From Pirellulales bacterium (GTDB lineage Bacteria; Planctomycetota; Planctomycetia; Pirellulales; Thermoguttaceae): 64,000 nt of DNA. The DNA lies in contig JAFGDS010000048.1 of NCBI GenBank assembly GCA_016931995.1, positions 1 to 64,000 of the forward strand, given 5' to 3'. Under the pieces are notes generated by a model that was given only the letters and a program-made list of their open reading frames with translations, did not search any database and was not told the origin of the DNA. Positions within the stretch are counted from its first letter, which is position 1. Each line of letters starts with the position of its first letter. Shown here one piece after another: positions 11,467 through 62,871 of this stretch. The position numbers were made by a program, and so were the translations under genes.

Positions 11467-12639
11467 ATGACCAATCCCGTCGCCGGCCGACGCGAGGCGT
11501 TCGCGGACGTGTATCAATGTCCGGGGTCGGACTGCCCGATCAGCCGGGCGGTGCATCTGGCGCGGCTGGCCGCGTACGATCCGGCGTGCCGGACGTGTCC
11601 GCGTCGTGGCGAGACGGCGGGCCTGTCCGACCGGCGACTGCGGCGGATCGAGGAAGTGGAATCCCGGCCGGCCGCGAGGCCGCTTATCACGTCCGCGGGG
11701 TTCGAGGGCGTGTGGCTCAGCGAGTTTGGCCCGGCGGAGTGCCAACAGGCGGGCAGGGCGTTTGGAATTGACCTGCGGCGGTTGGGCCATGGCATCGAGG
11801 GGGACAGTCCCATTTTCGCTGACGCGATAATCGGGCCAGTCCCCTGTGACGCATCTGGGACTGTTCCCCTCGGCACGTCCGCGGGCTCGTCGCGCGTGCT
11901 GCTGGCGGGAAACGGCGCCGCCCATGCGCCGGAGGCGCTGGCCGCGCTGAGCCAGGGGCTTCGTTGGGCCGGATGCGACGTGGTGGAGCTCGAACCGGTC
12001 ACCGCCGGGGCCATCGCCTGGGCCGTCGGGCGGCTCGACGCGGACGGGGGCGTGCTCGTCGGCACGCCCGGCCACCGGGCGCACGTCGCCGGGCTGACGT
12101 TCTGGCGGCGCGGCGCGGCGGGCCCGCTGGCGGGTGAATCGCTCGACGCGCTTGCACGGCTCTACCACGCCGCTCTCGATCGACCGCGGCGGACGTACGG
12201 CGCGCACGGCCGGGCGTCTGTCGCCGAAGACTACCTGGCCGGCTTCGCCGGGCACTACCACGCCCTGCGACCGCTTGCGATCCTTCTGGACACGCCTTGT
12301 GGGCCGCTGGCGGACTATCTTCAGACGCTCACCGCCACGAGCGCCTGCGCGATCCGGCGGGATCCCATCGACGTGGAGATTGGCCCGGGCGCCGCCGGCG
12401 GCGATCGTTTCCATTTCGCTGCCCGGATCGACGGCAACGGTTTCGCGTGTCGCGTCTGGGACGAGCGCGGCGCGGCGGTTGACGTCGATCGACTCGCCCG
12501 TGTTATCGCCAACGAGCGTCCTCGTCCGGCATTGCCCGCCACGGGCACGCCCGACGCCCTGGTGACGCTCACGAATCTGCTCGCGCTGTTGAGCCGGCGC
12601 GACCGTCCGCTGTCGGAATGGATGGACGTGGCGGGGTAG
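11467..12639 (+). CDS. Degenerate phosphohexomutase-like protein with in-frame repeat
   Basis: A 390-residue protein. Residues about 140-250 resemble domain I of alpha-D-phosphohexomutases: VLLAGNGAAHAPEALAAL, then a G-rich loop, and GVLVGTPGHRAHVAGLTFWRRG in the place of the active-site TASHNP segment. The phosphorylated Ser and the metal loop DGDxDR are not seen, so mutase activity is doubtful. The N-terminus carries four cysteines (CPGSDC at 18-23, CRTCP at 42-46), a possible metal site. Residues about 112-136 (GDSPIFADAIIGPVPCDASG) are translated from an R5 repeat and look like an insertion between the two parts. The 3' end overlaps the convergent gene at 12569-13018 by 71 bp. Function unknown. 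Confidence 0.7.
   Translation: MTNPVAGRREAFADVYQCPGSDCPISRAVHLARLAAYDPACRTCPRRGETAGLSDRRLRRIEEVESRPAARPLITSAGFEGVWLSEFGPAECQQAGRAFGIDLRRLGHGIEGDSPIFADAIIGPVPCDASGTVPLGTSAGSSRVLLAGNGAAHAPEALAALSQGLRWAGCDVVELEPVTAGAIAWAVGRLDADGGVLVGTPGHRAHVAGLTFWRRGAAGPLAGESLDALARLYHAALDRPRRTYGAHGRASVAEDYLAGFAGHYHALRPLAILLDTPCGPLADYLQTLTATSACAIRRDPIDVEIGPGAAGGDRFHFAARIDGNGFACRVWDERGAAVDVDRLARVIANERPRPALPATGTPDALVTLTNLLALLSRRDRPLSEWMDVAG
11799..11871. repeat. R5 repeat inside a coding region
   Basis: GGGGGACAGTCCCATTTTCG begins at 11799 and TGGGACTGTTCCCCTC lies at 11856-11871, an inverted arrangement. The same bases occur as an intergenic element at 51446-51529. Here the element is read through in frame by the phosphohexomutase-like gene. 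Confidence 0.7.
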
Positions 12640-13018
12640 ACGGAACAGAAAGGGTCCCTCCGACTGAAGGGTGCGCCGCCACAAGCCGTGATGCCGCCGC
12701 GGCTTCGCCGCAGGATTTTTTTAGGCATGCTGAGCGAAGCGAAGCATCTCGGCGCGCCTCGCGCGCATCACGGCAGCCCAACAGCCCGCGTAGTCCCTCG
12801 GGCACGTCCAACTCGCCCAGGCGAGGGTCGCGGCGAAGGGCGTCCAACACGGCGTCGAGCTGATCCTCGGGGCCGGCGGCCAGATCGAGGAAGACCCACT
12901 TGGCTCCGTTGATCTCGCATCCCCCCGCGCCGCGTCCGCCGAGCCATTCCTGGCGGATCCGATAGCCGGCCTGACCCGCCAGACCCAGCGCCGCTTCAAG
13001 CAGATCGACCGTGTGCAT
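12569..13018 (-). CDS. Small conserved planctomycete protein with repeat-encoded C-terminus
   Basis: A 149-residue reading frame starting at ATG 13018, after AAAGGAAT. The first 84 residues (VDLLEAALGLAGQAGYRIRQ, then EWLGGRGAGGCEINGAKWVF and LDLAAGPEDQLDAVLDALRR) look like a compact conserved protein of the planctomycetes; I do not know its role. From about residue 88 the frame runs into an R3 repeat (12726-12752), and the product becomes low-complexity (RDASLRSACLKKSC onward). The native stop therefore seems to have been lost by repeat insertion, and the extended frame overlaps the convergent gene. It ends 236 bp from the PfkB gene, also on the minus strand. Confidence 0.65.
   Translation of the reverse strand: MHTVDLLEAALGLAGQAGYRIRQEWLGGRGAGGCEINGAKWVFLDLAAGPEDQLDAVLDALRRDPRLGELDVPEGLRGLLGCRDAREARRDASLRSACLKKSCGEAAAASRLVAAHPSVGGTLSVPSTPPRPSIPTADGRAGSTARADS
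12726..12752. repeat. R3 repeat unit
   Basis: CATGCTGAGCGAAGCGAAGC followed by ATCTCGG, a copy of the family TCATCCTGAGCGAAGCGAAG. It is read in frame as the C-terminal part of the small gene on the minus strand. Confidence 0.75.
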
Positions 13019-13072: not shown

Positions 13073-13095
13073 TGTGAAGCTGGACATTCTAACGG

Positions 13096-13260
13096 CTCTA
13101 GGAACGTGTTTTGAAATTGGGCGCCACTGCTGGCTCGTCCAGCAGTGCCGGCGAATCCTGGGGGAGAAAAGGGCGGATTCCGGGGGAGAAACACTGCTGG
13201 ACAAGCCAGCAGTGGCACCCCCAAAGCGGCCGTAACGCATTTCCAAACACGTTCTAAAAG
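13096..13260. repeat. Nested inverted repeats (outer GAACGTGTTT, inner R2)
   Basis: Outer arms around GGAACGTGTTTTGAAATT (13101-13118) and AATGCGTTT-like ATTTCCAAACACGTTC (13239-13254) are inverted, imperfect copies. Inside, two R2 copies are inverted: GCCACTGCTGGCTCGTCCAG at 13123 and CACTGCTGGACAAGCCAGCA at 13192. The right outer arm reaches the stop codon of the PfkB gene. Confidence 0.7.
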
Positions 13261-14156
13261 CTCAGCATCCGTTTGTATTCTTCCATGCGGCGGTCGAGGT
13301 CGGCGCGCTGGATCTGCTGGAGTCGGTCCAGACTGAAGGCTTCCACGGTGAAGCTAGCGGCCAGCGTGCCGTAGGCCATGGCTTTTTTGAGCGTTTTGGG
13401 ATCGACGTTGCCCTGCTCGGCCAGGTAACCCATCATCCCCCCGCCGAAGCTGTCGCCGGCCCCGGTCGGATCGACGACGTTGGGCGTGGGGAAGGCGGGC
13501 AAGACGTACGTTTCGTGCTGGCTGAAGAACATGGCGCCGTGCTCGCCTTTTTTGATGACAACAAAGCGCGGGCCCATCTCGCGGACCTTGTGGCCCGCCC
13601 GGACGAGGTTTTCGTCGCCGGTAAGGAGCTTCGCCTCGCTGTCGTTGAGCACCAGCCCGTCGATCCGACGCAACAGCTCGGCCAGCTCGTCCGCCGCGCC
13701 GCGGATGTACAGATCCATCGTGTCGGCCACGCGCAGGTCCGCGCCCTTGCACTGATCGAGCACCCGCATCTGGATGGCCGGCGGCCCGTTGGCCAGGAAG
13801 AGATACCGGCACCGGGTAACCTCTTCCGGCAGCACGGGATCGAACCGGTCGAAGACGTTCAACTGGACGTCGAGCGTTTCGCGGTCGTTCATGTTGGGCA
13901 GGTACTTGCCCGTCCAGCGAAACGTCTTCGCCCCGGGGACCACCTGCAAGCCGGTCGTGTCGATCTGGCGGGCGGCCAGGAGCCGGGTGTGCTCCGCCGG
14001 CCAGTCCTCGCCCACGGCGCTCACGAGATGCACGGGCGTGAAGAAGCTGGCCGCATAGGCGAAGTACGTGGCCGAACCGCCCAGCACGTTGTCTCGCGAC
14101 TCGGTGGGCGTCCGCACGCTGTCCAAGGCAACCGATCCGACGACCACCAGTGGCAT
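13254..14156 (-). CDS. PfkB family carbohydrate kinase
   Basis: A 300-residue cytoplasmic kinase of the ribokinase/PfkB type, expected to phosphorylate a sugar or nucleoside with ATP. Motifs are N-terminal VVVGSVALDSV, GGSATYFAYAASFF in the substrate lid region and the second signature DPTGAGDSFGGG near residue 230, with D of GAGD as catalytic base. VLNDSEAKLLTGDENL is the usual NxxE segment. The substrate is not readable; ribokinase, fructokinase and adenosine-kinase-like options remain. The start is the ATG after GAAAGGACGAG. The gene is downstream of nothing on its strand except repeats. Confidence 0.9.
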   Translation of the reverse strand: MPLVVVGSVALDSVRTPTESRDNVLGGSATYFAYAASFFTPVHLVSAVGEDWPAEHTRLLAARQIDTTGLQVVPGAKTFRWTGKYLPNMNDRETLDVQLNVFDRFDPVLPEEVTRCRYLFLANGPPAIQMRVLDQCKGADLRVADTMDLYIRGAADELAELLRRIDGLVLNDSEAKLLTGDENLVRAGHKVREMGPRFVVIKKGEHGAMFFSQHETYVLPAFPTPNVVDPTGAGDSFGGGMMGYLAEQGNVDPKTLKKAMAYGTLAASFTVEAFSLDRLQQIQRADLDRRMEEYKRMLSF

Positions 14157-19352: not shown

Positions 19353-19517
19353 CGTACCGATCGACGTCGCTTCCCACACTCCCCTCGCCCGCTCGCGCCA
19401 GAGGGGTCGGGGGTGAGGGCATTTGGCAAACGCACGAGGCGTCTCGGCGGCGTCATGCCGAGCGAAGCGAAGCATCTCGGCTTGGGCAACGCCAAAAAAA
19501 TCCTTCGCTGCGCTCAC

Positions 19518-19602
19518 GATGACGGGCGATTTCGCTCAGGATGACGGGCGATTTCGCTCAGGATGACGGGCGATTTCGCTCACGATGACGGGCGATTTCA
19601 CC
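19518..19602. repeat. 22-bp tandem repeat (four units)
   Basis: The unit GATGACGGGCGATTTCGCTC plus two bases starts at 19518, 19540, 19562 and 19584, exactly 22 bp apart, with only small differences in the last unit. The unit looks like an expanded half of an R3 repeat (CGCTCAGGATGAC). It fills the 3' gap between the DUF1207 gene and the convergent sulfatase gene; an R8 copy (about 19378-19425) and an R3 copy (19455-19481) lie just before it. Confidence 0.85.
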
Positions 19603-19636
19603 CGCGTTGGGCGGTCTTCCAGCGGGATTCGGTCGC

Positions 19637-30303: not shown

Positions 30304-30426
30304 ACCACGGAGACCCGGAAGCCCTTTCTTTGGCCCAGGCTGGAGAAAGGACACGAAAGCGCCTGGGCCAGAATTCTCGGACGGACGCCAAGACGTCATC
30401 CTCCGTGTTCTCCGTGTCTCCGTGGT
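30304..30426. repeat. Nested inverted repeat (outer R4, inner TGGCCCAGGC)
   Basis: Outer arms ACCACGGAGACCCGG (30304-30318) and CCGTGTCTCCGTGGT (30412-30426) match with one mismatch. Inside, TGGCCCAGGC (30331-30340) and GCCTGGGCCA (30361-30370) are a perfect 10-bp inverted pair. The right outer arm lies partly within the last codons of the gene that ends at 30396. Confidence 0.75.
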
Positions 30427-38644: not shown

Positions 38645-38790
38645 CAGTAGTTCCAAATTCGCCCCGCAAGTCATCCTGAATTCGCCCCCGCAAGTCATCC
38701 TGAGCGCAGCGAAGGATCTCGGTGGCAAGGGAGATTCTTCGCTTCGCTCAGACTGACGGTATCGATTGCCTCCGAGATTTGGAACTACTG
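38645..38790. repeat. Nested inverted repeat around R3 (CAGTAGTTCCAAAT arms)
   Basis: Perfect 14-bp outer arms CAGTAGTTCCAAAT (38645-38658) and ATTTGGAACTACTG (38777-38790). Inside are R3 copies in inverted orientation (TCATCCTGAGCGCAGCGAAG at 38696 and GATTCTTCGCTTCGCTCAGA at about 38732), and a direct repeat of CGCAAGTCATCCTGA at 38665 and 38689. It lies between the oxidoreductase gene and the sulfatase gene. Confidence 0.8.
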
Positions 38791-51068: not shown

Positions 51069-51525
51069 GGTGGTTTTTGCCGCGGGGGCGCGCAACGAGC
51101 ACACGGAGGCAATGAAACGCCAAACTGTCGTCGGACGAGGAAGATCACCACGGAGACACGGAGGGCACGGAGATATGAGTGGGACGGGTTCGACAAAGCC
51201 TCATCCCAGAGCCCAAGCTGCGGCGTCATGCTGAGCGCCGCGAAACATCTCACCTCCAGCAACTTAACCGAGATCCTTCGCTTCGCTCGGGATGACGTGT
51301 ACCTTGCTCAGGATGACGTGCTGTTGCGGCAAAATTCTGGGATACGGGCTACTCCGTGCCCTCCGTGTTTCCGTGGTGAATCTTGCCCCGCAATGCAACG
51401 ACGCCTGCATTGTGCGGCGGCGCGGCCGGTTTGGCAAGGTGCGGAAGGGCATAGTCCCATTTTCGCTGGCGCGCAATTCGGGACAGTCCCCGGGGCGCGA
51501 AAATCGGGACGGTTCCCCGGGCGGC
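51069..51525. repeat. Gap filled by nested R4/R3 and R5 repeats
   Basis: R4 arms GATCACCACGGAGACACGGA (51143) and TCCGTGTTTCCGTGGTGAAT (51362) enclose R3 elements (GTCATGCTGAGCGCCGCGAA at 51227, GATCCTTCGCTTCGCTCGGG at about 51273, GCTCAGGATGACG at 51306). R5 fragments (TAGTCCCATTTTCGCTGGCG, then GGGACAGTCCC) follow at 51450-51529. No gene. Confidence 0.75.
51143..51382. repeat. Nested R4 inverted repeat around R3
   Basis: Outer arms GATCACCACGGAGACACGGA-GGGCACGGAG (51143-51172) and CTCCGTGCCC-TCCGTGTTTC-CGTGGTGAATC (51352-51382) match over about 30 bp. The roughly 180 bp between contain R3 units in inverted order, as at 38645-38790. It is the longest nested palindrome in the window. Confidence 0.8.
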
Positions 51526-59086: not shown

Positions 59087-60652
59087 TCAAATCCGACGAC
59101 GCAACAGACCCATGGCCAATCCGGCCAGGCAAAGCGCCAGCACGCACGGCTCGGGCACGGCCGCGCCCGTGGGCAAACCCGTACCCCAGTTCGCCGAGAG
59201 AATCGCCAGGTCCAGATCGTCCACCTTGCCGTCGTCGTTGAAATCGCCTTGGCTCCAGCTCGCGCCGGTGGCCAGCAGCCAGTTGGCGGCCAGACGCGCG
59301 GCGTCGTCTTTATCCACGTCGCCGTCGCGGTCGGCGTCGCCCGGCGGATACTCCACGGGAATGCCGACGTAGAAATCCACCTCGTTCAGGCCCACGAAGT
59401 TGTTGTCTCCGCCCAGCCCCGAGAGAATGTCCAACTTGACGTACTGGGCCACGACGCCGCCCAGATTCACCACCTGGCCGGGATTGGCGCCGTCGCCGGT
59501 GGCCTGGCTCAGTTGGTACGTGCCCAGCGACGTGAACGTGACGCCGTCGGTGGACGTGAAGACCTCGATCTCGCCGGATCCGCGGTTGGTGAGGTCCATC
59601 GGCGGATCCCAATATGGATAGTTCTCGTTGTAGTTGTACACGACCATCTTGGCCAACGGCCGCGCTTCGCCCAGATCGAAGAGGATCCAGGGATCCAAGT
59701 CGTTGGGCGCGGCGAAGGTGCCGTTGTTGAGCCACATGCCGTCGACCTGGCCCGAGACGCCGTCGGGCCACGTGGTCCCGCGTCCAACGCCATCGGTCGT
59801 GTTCGCGGCGAATCGCATAAAGCCGCCGAGGAGTTCCGTGGACGCCGTGGCCCCGACGCCGCGCAGCGGAAGCTCGTCCGGCAGCGTGCCCACGCCCACG
59901 TCCAGCGGCGTCTTGGTCTGCGCGGCCAGCTCGGCGATTTGCGCGGGGGTGAGCATGTCGTTGAAGACCGCCACGTCGTCGACGCTGCCGGTCATGCTGC
60001 CCCAAACGTCCTCGCCGCCCACCCAGGCCCCAATCGTCAGCGACGTCGTCGGCGAGATGCTCAGGCATTCGCCCGGCAGCGTGCCCTGCGAAACGCCGTC
60101 CAGAAACAGTTCGCTCACTCCGGTGAAGTGCGGCTGGAACGTCACGGCGACGTGGTGCCAGGTGTTGTCGCCCACCGGCGTCGTCCCGGTGATCGTGGGC
60201 AGGATGCCGGACGAATTCCACGTGACTCCCGCGGCGGCTGGGTCGGCGACGCTCAGGGAAATGAGGTTGTTCGTGAAAACGTCGTTGCTTTGTCTTGCCA
60301 AGACGGTGCCGTAATGGCCGTAATCGCCGTACAAGCCCGTCTGCGGGCCGGACCACTTCACCCATAGGCTGATGGTGCCGACGTACTGGCCGTCGAGCCC
60401 TCCGCCGCCGGGAATCTCGATGAAATCCGGCCCGGCGCCGTTAAACGCCATCGCGCCGCCGGGAACTCCGTTTCGGTCGTCGGTGGCACTCGGGCCGGGG
60501 AGACCCCACGGGTTGCCGTCCGTGCCGACCGTGGCCGTCGCATTGCCGTCCAGCGGCCAATAGCCAACCAGGTCCGCCCGGGCCGACCCCGCCAGCCACA
60601 ATCCAACGACCGCCGCGGCCGCGCTCCACGCCCTTTTGGCCTTCGTATCCAT
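59087..60652 (-). CDS. LamG/discoidin/dockerin PEP-CTERM protein
   Basis: A 521-residue secreted protein. Signal: [19 protein letters not shown]. Residues about 25-230 are a LamG/concanavalin sandwich ([54 protein letters not shown]). Then comes a discoidin-like region ([40 protein letters not shown]). Residues about 440-495 hold two dockerin-like calcium loops ([40 protein letters not shown]). It ends in [19 protein letters not shown] plus RRRI, a PEP-CTERM. Carbohydrate binding is likely. ATG 60652 follows GAGGTACC. A closely similar paralog lies just upstream. Confidence 0.9.
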
Positions 60653-60756
60653 CGCTTGGTACCTCACGAAAAGAGACGGACAAATCAAAGTGATCCGGCA
60701 ACGCCTGTCTCACGCTCAACCGCGAACCCTCCGCGCGTCCCAGACCGCCGGAAGGC

Positions 60757-60854
60757 GTTGGAGGCGGGAAGGCGAGTTCCCGCCTCCGACGCATGGGGTG
60801 TCCCGCCGGCCGCCTCGCCACGGGCCGGCGGGACGGAGGTGTGCCTCCGTCCTA
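60757..60854. repeat. Palindromes between the LamG paralogs
   Basis: GAGGCGGGAAGGCGAGTTCC plus CGCCTC at 60761-60786 and GGACGGAGGTGTGCCTCCGT plus CC at 60831-60852 are small hairpins. The second touches the stop codon of the 60852 gene, and could act as a terminator for it although no T-run follows on the minus strand. Confidence 0.55.
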
Positions 60855-62216
60855 GAACCGTTGTCTCCTTCGCCAGATCGCCACCATCGACAACCCCCCC
60901 AGCGCCGCCAACAGGGCGGCGGACGGCTCGGGCACCGCGTAGAAATCGACTTCATTCAGGCCGACGAGGTAAAAATCACCCGCCGCGTCGCCGTGTCGCG
61001 AAAGGACGTCGAGTTTCACGTACCGCGCGACCAGACCGCCGAGATCGACCGCCTGGCCAGGGTTGTTCCCGTCGCCCGTGGCCGGGTCGAACTCGTGGAT
61101 CCCCACCGAGGTGAACGTCACGCCGTCGGTCGACGCGAGGATCTCGACCTCCTTCACGCCCCGAACGACGAAGCTACCCCAGTCGGGATAGCTCTCGTTG
61201 TAGTTGTACAGGACCATTTTGGCCAAAGGCTGTTCCTCGCCGAGGTCGAACGTGATCCAGGGATCCAGATCGTTGGGCTCGGCGAACGTGCCGTTGTTGA
61301 GCCACATGCCGTCGACCCGGCCCGAGACGCCATCCGGCCAGGTCGTCCCGCGTCCGACGCCGTCGGTCGTATTCGCGGCGAAACGGCTGAAGCCGTTGAG
61401 TTCCGACGACGCCGTGGCGACGACGCCCCGCAGGGGAAGCTCGGCCGGCCGCGTGCCCGCGCCCACGTCCAGCGGCGTCTTGGTCTGCGCGGCCAACTCG
61501 CCAATCTGCGCAAGGCTCAGGATGTCGTCGAACACCGCCACGTCATCGAGACTGGCCGTGGCGCTGCCGTAGAAGCCGCCGCCGTTGCTAACCCAAGCCC
61601 CGAGCGTCAGGGCCGTCGTCGGGAAAAGACTTAGGCACTCGCCCGGCGCGGCGCCCTGCGAGACGCCGTCCAAAAACAGCTCGTTCACGCCGGTGAAGTG
61701 CGGCTGGAAGGTGATCGCGACGTGATGCCACGTGTCGTTGCCCACGGGAGTGGCCCCGAAAAGGGACGGTATCACTCCCGATGACGACCAGTTCACGCCC
61801 GCGGCCGCCGGGTCGGCGCCGCCCAGCGAGAGCAGATTGTTCGAGAAGACATCGTCTTCTTGCCGGGCGAGAATCGTGCCGTATTGGCCGTAATCGCCAA
61901 ACACGCCCGTCTGCGGGCCGGACCACTTCACCCACATGCTGATCGTGCCGACGTACTGGCCGTCGAGCCCTCCGCCGCCGGCCACGGAAACATACTGCCC
62001 GATCGCCGCGTCGAACGCCAGCGCGCCGCCGGCCGCGCCGTTGCGGTCGGCCGCGGCCGTCGGGGCGTTCACCGGGACGCCGCTCGTGCCCACCGTCGCC
62101 GTGGCGTCGCCGTCCAACGGCCAGTACGCGACCAAGCCGGCCTGGGCCGACGCGGCAAACAGAAAAGCCGCCGCCATTGCACAACAAAACGCTGCCGCCG
62201 TTTTTCGCCTGCGCAT
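60852..62216 (-). CDS. LamG/discoidin PEP-CTERM protein (paralog of the 59087 gene)
   Basis: A 454-residue secreted protein. Signal: AAFCCAMAAAFLFAASAQAG. LamG part: [34 protein letters not shown] and [20 protein letters not shown]. Discoidin-like part: LRGVVATASSELNGFSRFAA and FDLGEEQPLAKMVLYNYNES. It ends VPEPSAALLAALGGLSMVAI and WRRRQRF. It lacks the dockerin pair of its neighbour. Long runs are identical to the paralog in protein and DNA, so this is a recent duplication. ATG 62216 follows GGGGAG. Confidence 0.9.
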   Translation of the reverse strand: MRRRKTAAAFCCAMAAAFLFAASAQAGLVAYWPLDGDATATVGTSGVPVNAPTAAADRNGAAGGALAFDAAIGQYVSVAGGGGLDGQYVGTISMWVKWSGPQTGVFGDYGQYGTILARQEDDVFSNNLLSLGGADPAAAGVNWSSSGVIPSLFGATPVGNDTWHHVAITFQPHFTGVNELFLDGVSQGAAPGECLSLFPTTALTLGAWVSNGGGFYGSATASLDDVAVFDDILSLAQIGELAAQTKTPLDVGAGTRPAELPLRGVVATASSELNGFSRFAANTTDGVGRGTTWPDGVSGRVDGMWLNNGTFAEPNDLDPWITFDLGEEQPLAKMVLYNYNESYPDWGSFVVRGVKEVEILASTDGVTFTSVGIHEFDPATGDGNNPGQAVDLGGLVARYVKLDVLSRHGDAAGDFYLVGLNEVDFYAVPEPSAALLAALGGLSMVAIWRRRQRF

Positions 62217-62871
62217 CTCGAAGCTCCCCTACGTGACAGAAGAAACCAGTAGACAAGGATCGGAGGAGTCAGCCCGCCTGATAGTCCATGGTAAAAGCCC
62301 ACCATTGGAAGTACACAGCGTTTCGCGACAGTTTTCCGGCATTTTGCGACACGGTGGGAGGACACGTCGGCAAGCGGAAATCGCGTCCGGAAGAAGGACT
62401 TGCACGACGGCGGCCATTCCCGCCAGCAATCCGTTAATCCTAGTGTAGTGATTCACGCTGTTGGGGTCTTATTCAGTGAGTGCCACTGGCTCCGCCAGTG
62501 CGGGATTCCACGGGATTCCCCACGGCGGCTCGCACTGGAAAAGCCAGTGGCACTCAAAAGACTGCTTTCAATACGATCCCCCAATTCGGAATCACTACAC
62601 TAGTCCTAAAACAAGCGAACGTCTGGGGCGTTTGGAGTGGTTTTTTGGTGAAGATATCGAGTGGCCTGCTCCCCAAAAGCTGATCCATGTGTTATGAGAG
62701 TCCAAGAGCCCCTGGAGGGGGCGAGGAGGACTTTCGGCACGCCGAAGGAGAAGCATCTGCTCAGCGCCTGGCCCGCTTTTCCGCTCCGCTTTTCCGCCCA
62801 ACCCCGAGTCCCAACCCCCTCACCCCCGGCCCCTCTCCCGCTTTCCGGGAGAGGGGAGACGCGGTGGACCG
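62217..62871. other. Repeat-rich gap
   Basis: About 650 bp without a supported gene. It contains the leader of the LamG paralog, the nested repeat at 62440-62603, and an R8 unit at about 62813-62866 (CCCTCACCCCCGGCCCCTCT, then GGGAGAGGGG). The open frames here have no ribosome site. Confidence 0.5.
62440..62603. repeat. Nested inverted repeat (outer CTAGTGTAGTGATTC, inner R1)
   Basis: Perfect 15-bp outer arms CTAGTGTAGTGATTC (62440-62454) and GAATCACTACACTAG (62589-62603). Inside are two inverted R1 units: GTGCCACTGGCTCCGCCAGT at about 62481 and CACTGGAAAAGCCAGTGGCA at about 62534. Same plan as the other nested elements. Confidence 0.8.

Follow-up and report, generated by a model that had tools for sequence, protein, structure and literature searches.

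The window, that is, the whole 64,000-nucleotide stretch analysed (positions 1 to 64,000 of contig JAFGDS010000048.1 from the Pirellulales bacterium assembly GCA_016931995.1; 5.43 Mb in 153 contigs), carries at 13096–13260 one palindrome inside another, raising the question of whether such nesting records repeated insertion of one repeat family into the loop of a second or a single element that contains both. REPINs and MITEs are usually treated as separate bacterial repeat classes with different transposases. The feature is very probably a copy of a non-autonomous transposable element of composite build, in which TIRs of a family here called T1 surround a REPIN; such captures would have taken place at least twice in this bacterial family.

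The repeat search of the window detected an outer inverted pair (13095–13117 and 13239–13261; 23 nt, 83%) enclosing an inner one (13119–13147 and 13192–13220; 29 nt, 93% complementary), and comparison with other T1 copies set the element ends at 13102 and 13254. Together they confirmed the nested palindrome described in the earlier note, with imperfect outer inverted arms around an inverted inner pair, and its remark that the right arm extends to the PfkB stop was also correct. The resulting 153-bp unit at 13102–13254 reads arm, TGGGC, REP-B, linker, inverted REP-B, ACCC, spacer, arm:

13099–13101, no strand: left flank TAG, an imperfect target duplication (expected TNA; one mismatch to the right flank TAA)
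13102–13117, plus strand: left TIR of the T1 MITE, 16 bp, GAACGTGTTTTGAAAT, defined from the sequence and the copy comparison
13123–13147, plus strand: REP-B unit 1, with GGGC in front at 13119–13122
13148–13191, no strand: linker of 44 bp, made up of a diverged pair of 22-bp copies (20-nt repeats at 13150–13169 and 13172–13191)
13192–13216, minus strand: REP-B unit 2, inverted, with the outer ACCC at 13217–13220
13221–13238, no strand: 18-bp right spacer between the REPIN and the right TIR
13239–13254, minus strand: right TIR, 16 bp, whose last base doubles as the G in the minus-strand TAG stop of pfkB
13255–13257, no strand: right flank TAA, an imperfect target duplication (left TAG)
13254–14156, minus strand: gene for a PfkB-family carbohydrate kinase (PF00294, 100.5 bits), whose stop codon is abutted by the element

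A single copy of the 22-bp linker was present in two other T1 copies (L048 and L069). The closest named relatives of the PfkB protein are planctomycetes, mostly Pirellulales-type MAGs, and in all eight relatives inspected pfkB ended in its own stop codon without a T1 element; one of them (L165) had a REP-B-like unit about 90 bp downstream, without T1 arms. A 225-aa open frame beginning with a TTG in the right arm crosses the window copy into the downstream gene; in our judgement the ATG near 13018, outside the element, is the more likely start of that gene. A promoter-like site directed outward to the downstream gene was noticed on the minus strand at 13086–13115 (TTCAAA, 18 nt, TAGAAT; 9/12, with a mean of 0.1 for shuffles), its first hexamer lying in the left TIR. 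The DNA of 13080–13280 folds with z = -6.7, and as RNA the 153-nt element forms one long hairpin of -90.5 kcal/mol (z = -10.8). The only Rfam match, to a microRNA family, reached 30.4 bits against a gathering threshold of 100, far below the threshold, and was rejected as an identity for the element.

The T1 arm, allowing three mismatches at most, had 62 matches genome-wide and none in the control, and the loci collected contained 19 arm pairs 60–300 bp apart. Exact 3-bp TNA repeats flanked seven of the 19 pairs, compared with three of 133 control comparisons with shifted flanks; the other 12 lacked an exact duplication, among them the window copy with its single mismatch, and TNA preceded 46 of 74 distinct T1 arms. 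T1 thus shows, as MITEs do, inverted termini of the same family at both ends of many dispersed copies, a small size without an own transposase or coding capacity, and a target-site duplication that is evident at the level of the family and imperfect in the window copy. The two-armed copies with a REP-B core measured 86–168 bp, with one of 212 bp. Other bodies were also found between T1 ends, e.g., one of 281–298 bp in which a different palindrome forms an inverted pair, and two one-armed T1 copies (L034 and L072) contained REP-A doublets. We abandoned the idea of one-armed copies being broken precisely at the edge of the REP, since the search would have missed breaks within the REP.

The exact REP-B palindrome had 62 forward and 52 reverse matches in the 5.43-Mb genome, at least six fully symmetric sites being counted on both strands, and the reversed-pattern control had none. 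A strong fold at the 3' end of pfkB is also what an ordinary transcription terminator or a random palindrome would provide, but no T-run terminator was called inside the element, and a repeated family with TIRs and target duplications is at odds with either origin. As a full explanation this was refuted by the copy numbers of REP-B and the arms, set against controls of zero, and by the target duplications; we regard it as extremely improbable.

Within a sample of 1.264 Mb (60 stretches plus the window) 244 REP-A, 63 REP-B and 176 REP-C units were recognised, corresponding to 193, 50 and 139 per Mb, and the three doublet types spanned 11.7 kb in total. Neighbouring units within 120 bp were inverted in one orientation in 18/18 cases for REP-B, 77/119 for REP-A and 67/69 for REP-C, so the dominant arrangement is an inverted pair with a short linker, as in REPINs. 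The REP head of REPINs is given as GT(A/G)G in the available part of the source (PMC2817692), and the heads beside the palindromes here, mostly GTGC or GCGC, differ from it. REP-A was present at four of the seven Y1_Tnp loci of the genome, including both sides of the RAYT-like gene L066, whose score with NF047646 was 70.4 bits, under the cut-off of 80. None of these seven loci carried a REP-B site, so that a RAYT-like route of spread is presumptive for REP-B. A tandem 22-bp repeat, CGCTCAGGATGACGGGCGATTT, which includes part of a REP-C-like sequence, was seen elsewhere in the window at 19511–19620.

The position of REP-B relative to the arms was far from random. Inward of the 74 T1 arms the first REP-B began at 22 bp in 17 and at 39 bp in 15, at other offsets in seven, and was absent within 200 bp in 35; outward, the control direction, REP-B was found at one of 74. 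In the 1.264-Mb sample seven of nine T1 arm pairs held a complete REP-B doublet against a mean of 0.01 of nine for random windows of equal length, which never exceeded one in 2000 rounds, and the same sample had REP-A doublets in both T2 pairs and REP-C doublets in all three T3 pairs. A fixed place of the inner units inside the outer ones, by which the earlier note had wanted its idea to be judged, was therefore found, 32 of the 74 arms having one of the two main offsets. The linkers suggest how the place came to be fixed. Among 45 distinct REP-B doublets, taken from loci picked by arm or by REP-B and so enriched for arms, 20 had the MITE-type linker and all of these were armed (12 with two arms and eight with one); of the 25 with other linkers four had one arm and 21 none, and 40 of 44 singlets were without an arm, items with less than 30 bp of flank (also given as 50-bp-scale flanks) being excluded. 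Hence REP-B also exists free of arms in the same genome, both as doublets with other linkers and as singlets, and the T1-enclosed doublets of this genome have a common linker lineage, most of them with the 22-bp linker duplication.

What the earlier note had proposed, a preferential insertion of one family into the loop of another, was not upheld within T1. Because the doublets with the MITE-type linker were all armed and most free doublets had other linkers, the T1 nesting is best explained, as far as sequence can tell, as a composite element inherited as one unit by shared descent, which makes repeated preferential insertion unnecessary; repeated insertion as the cause of the fixed T1 nesting was rejected, linker and arms being co-inherited. 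A weaker form of the proposal survived, since the nesting recurs in T1, T2, T3 and T4. Similar nesting had been reported for the gaps at 30304, 38645, 51143 and 62440, and inverted outer arms were indeed present at all four and REP doublets in three, but 30304 held none of the five defined REP families:

38645–38790, no strand: T3-type element of 146 bp, TIR CAGTAGTTCCAAAT around a REP-C doublet, flanks AGGTT/AGGCT, imperfect
62440–62603, no strand: T2-type element of 164 bp, TIR CTAGTGTAGTGATTC around a REP-A doublet
51145–51379, no strand: CACGGAG-type inverted arms around a REP-C doublet (gap 51143), no target duplication seen
30304–30426, no strand: CACGGAG-type inverted arms, interior not among the five defined REP families, the weakest case

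The T3 copies were mostly 122–124 bp long with a REP-C doublet, and 11 of 22 had exact 5-bp duplications (control 0/154); a search of 119 same-family genomes with an exact pattern found the composite of T3 and REP-C in one, the genome of the window itself. T2 had eight clear copies, seven with a REP-A doublet and one with a collapsed doublet, and no duplication outside the CTAG ends was found in nine pairs. The ten distinct CACGGAG-type pairs, in which target duplications were not seen, included five with a REP-C doublet, four of them beginning 69–80 bp from the arm start.

Search of the 119 same-family genomes (own included) with the T1 arm plus REP head gave matches in six genomes from five of 40 genera, and REP-B alone was wider, in 20 genomes and 18 genera. 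Five two-armed T1 copies inspected from other genera were 130–132 bp long, four of them with exact TNA repeats. A further TIR family, T4 (CAGYCCGTTGAAAAA), encloses the REP-B doublet in genomes G068, G004 and G005, which belong to related genera, and exact 4-bp duplications were present in 11 of 18 entries, two of which are inner fragments of others; 10 of the 11 were YTAR, and the control gave 0/126. A sample of G068, 338 kb taken entirely from contigs with known matches, had 30 REP-B doublets, 23 with two T4 arms, four with one T4 arm, one with T1 and T4 and two free, i.e., 28 of 30 with at least one arm, plus three singlets. Nearly all REP-B doublets in this sampled part of G068 thus lie beside or between arms, which bears on the idea of one repeat riding on another. 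The same 338 kb had 87 T4-like arm matches, 36 without REP-B inside, many of which are probably chance matches in coding sequence. At the fetched REP-B doublets, arm-like ends were recognised by eye at all eight loci of G005, three of ten of G027 and neither of the two of G026, despite seven T1 matches in G026 in the search with arm plus REP head. A hybrid in which one REP-B core lies between a T4 end and a T1 end was observed at the same locus in G068 (L362/L408) and G004 (L363); the G004 doublet has collapsed into a single palindrome. The genus of G004 also includes G067, which had other sequence at this locus. T4 ends in G068 were also seen around other palindromic cores (L404, L406 and L416), namely GGGGTGGCAG...CTGCCACCCC, single or as a doublet, and a further doublet; both ends were visible for L416, flanked on either side by TTAG, and one end for each of the two others. 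Because T4 ends enclose other palindromic cores as well, the cores look exchangeable.

Some observations favour preferential insertion. On this view, REPINs moved by RAYT on single-stranded hairpins would insert repeatedly into MITE loops at the stem-loop junction. In its favour are the same position of the REPIN beside the short arm in T1 and T4, the variety of palindromic cores enclosed by T1 and T4 ends, and T1 linkers at chance identity across genera next to near-identical REPs, a pattern that fresh insertions would give as well. However, the T1 doublets of the window's genome share a linker lineage, most with the 22-bp duplication. The loci collected by then included no convincing REPIN-free T1/T4 pair of 33–62 bp, a potential target, one 40-bp T1 match looking like chance, and T1 and T4 have the inner TTGAAA(A) in common, so that their ends are maybe related and the equal geometry may be homology. 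We consider such repeated insertion unlikely.

Another possibility is that the REP core has a function in the MITE, its hairpin or a REP-binding protein aiding the pairing of the ends or protecting transcripts, so that REP-cored MITEs would out-compete others and selection would keep the REP. In 20 two-armed T1 elements with at most five mismatches in both arms (12 from the window's genome and eight from others), the REP units were 97–98% and the arms 81–84% identical between genera; the spacer reached 55% (45% after shuffling) and the linker 42% (39% after shuffling), and the 23 T4/T4 composites in 338 kb of G068 are in the same direction. Yet the REP units were recognised by similarity (at most five mismatches of 25), so that their identity could not fall below 80%, and exact REP patterns had served to fetch several loci, while exchange with free REPs could keep the REPs alike without selection; a working role of this kind appears rather doubtful. 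The cores could also be mere passengers, if MITEs arise from any DNA between two IS ends in repeat-rich intergenic regions, as the dense REP-A, REP-B and REP-C populations would allow. The doublets cover only 11.7 kb of the 1.264 Mb, yet the recurrent T1–T4 bodies, a set biased by having been found via a search for nesting, mostly have a palindromic core; this reading could be right, and we lean against it. The REP core may be an aid to mobility, be maintained by exchange with free REPs, or be mere cargo.

Under the favoured composite-element reading, a DDE-type transposase encoded elsewhere would bind the T1 TIRs and act in trans, moving the whole unit (mostly about 130–155 bp) into TNA targets, and the REPIN would sit at a fixed place because the transposase moves everything bounded by the TIRs. 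The same REPIN family, where free of TIRs, has presumably been spread by RAYT-like Y1 transposases, and a TIR pair would have captured the REPIN more than once in this bacterial family. Nesting in T1 to T4, three different duplication lengths in three of these families and other cores in T1 and T4 ends suggest that the uptake of REP-type cores, either through recombination or through insertion into the loop, probably took place on more than one occasion. An extension, for us a tentative and doubtful one, would make the REPINs an exchangeable, selected core of DDE-type MITEs with dual mobility, spreading alone by RAYT or between the ends of several IS families and exchanging TIRs through recombination at the REP, a take-over that would drive the amplification of REPINs in some genomes; the exchange is suggested by the T1/T4 hybrid found at one locus in two species.

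TNA and YTAR are target motifs in the IS5 family with its IS1031 and IS5/IS427 groups. T1 has the 3-bp TNA target of an IS5/IS1031-type end, and this provisional label is taken from the duplication size alone. According to the available parts of the sources, members of the IS1031 group commonly have 3-nt targets (PMC2516522), and 4-bp duplications occur in some elements of the IS5 and IS427 groups, most IS427 ones having 2-bp duplications (PMC3281130). The duplication lengths of T1 and T4 hence match those in the IS5 family, but no transposase was linked here to T1 or T4 ends: a T1-like arm was not found at the two DDE_Tnp_1 loci of the genome (L256 and L257), and a DNA query with the IS end over 60 genomes (the window's and 59 relatives) for an autonomous IS with T1 ends returned only contig ends of the window's genome and a short match in G021 (bases 35–59 of 83), in apparent coding sequence and probably due to chance. 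Seven contigs of the window's own assembly (C27, C28, C31, C50, C58, C110 and C138) break off 81–86 bp inward of a T1 arm, and their interiors are of two kinds, neither of them that of the MITE. Such breaks would be expected of a longer multi-copy element with T1 ends, and one may have been lost in assembly, the two interiors possibly being the two ends of an insertion sequence.

MITEs, REPINs and REP-targeting IS elements are already known; a REPIN-cored MITE was not among the papers listed by the literature searches, which covered few subscription journals. The comparisons below hold for the accessible parts of the cited sources. Bacterial MITEs such as RUP, NEMIS, ERIC and Nezha (PMC3733652) resemble the present elements in having TIRs of 15–30 bp, a noncoding and foldable body of 70–300 bp and a frequent position near genes; unlike in them, a complete REPIN, from a REP family abundant in its own right, forms the core here, and several TIR families are built alike. 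The REPINs of REP-RAYT systems (PMC3116915, PMC2817692) share the two inverted REPs, short linker and high copy number, and L066 is flanked by REP-A, but here many doublets lie between TIRs with target duplications. The nearest precedent is in Pseudomonas putida and P. fluorescens, where degenerate REPs at RAYT-type genes sit next to stem-loops of unrelated sequence, in 'hundreds of these bizarre structures' (PMC3733652): there, too, REP sequence is linked, in many copies, with inverted repeats not related to it, but the structures flank tyrosine-transposase genes, the REPs are degenerate and the passage mentions no target duplications. IS elements targeting REPs (PMC1525189) show a similarly tight association of IS and REP, with the difference that there the IS inserts into the REP, while here the REPIN is inside the TIRs. 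The presence of REPINs at fixed places in several TIR families suggests that one selfish repeat may ride on another, and the REPIN-cored MITE families are natural replicates for asking what role REP palindromes have in mobility. They also call for caution, as nested palindromes need not mean repeated insertion hot spots.

Several minor observations were made on the surroundings of T1 and the rest of the window. T1 ends tend to adjoin stop codons: of the 37 arms (out of 74) kept for having a TNA flank and at least 600 bp upstream, 13 terminate an open frame 100 or more codons long, the local permutation mean being 7.0 and 13 being reached in three of 2000 rounds; with thresholds of 150, 200 and 300 codons the observed number was reached in 27, 22 and two of 2000 rounds, respectively. 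At two loci a TAG stop takes its G from the first position of the TIR, namely in the window at 13254–13256 and at L362/L363 in G068 and G004. A 70-bp repeat with GGACAGTCCC-type sequence occurs in the window at 11775–11844 and 51422–51491, the copies being 74% alike and one of them lying inside a long open frame, and 59608–61890 contains a tandem duplication that has diverged, its pieces lying about 1.57 kb apart and being 74–85% identical.
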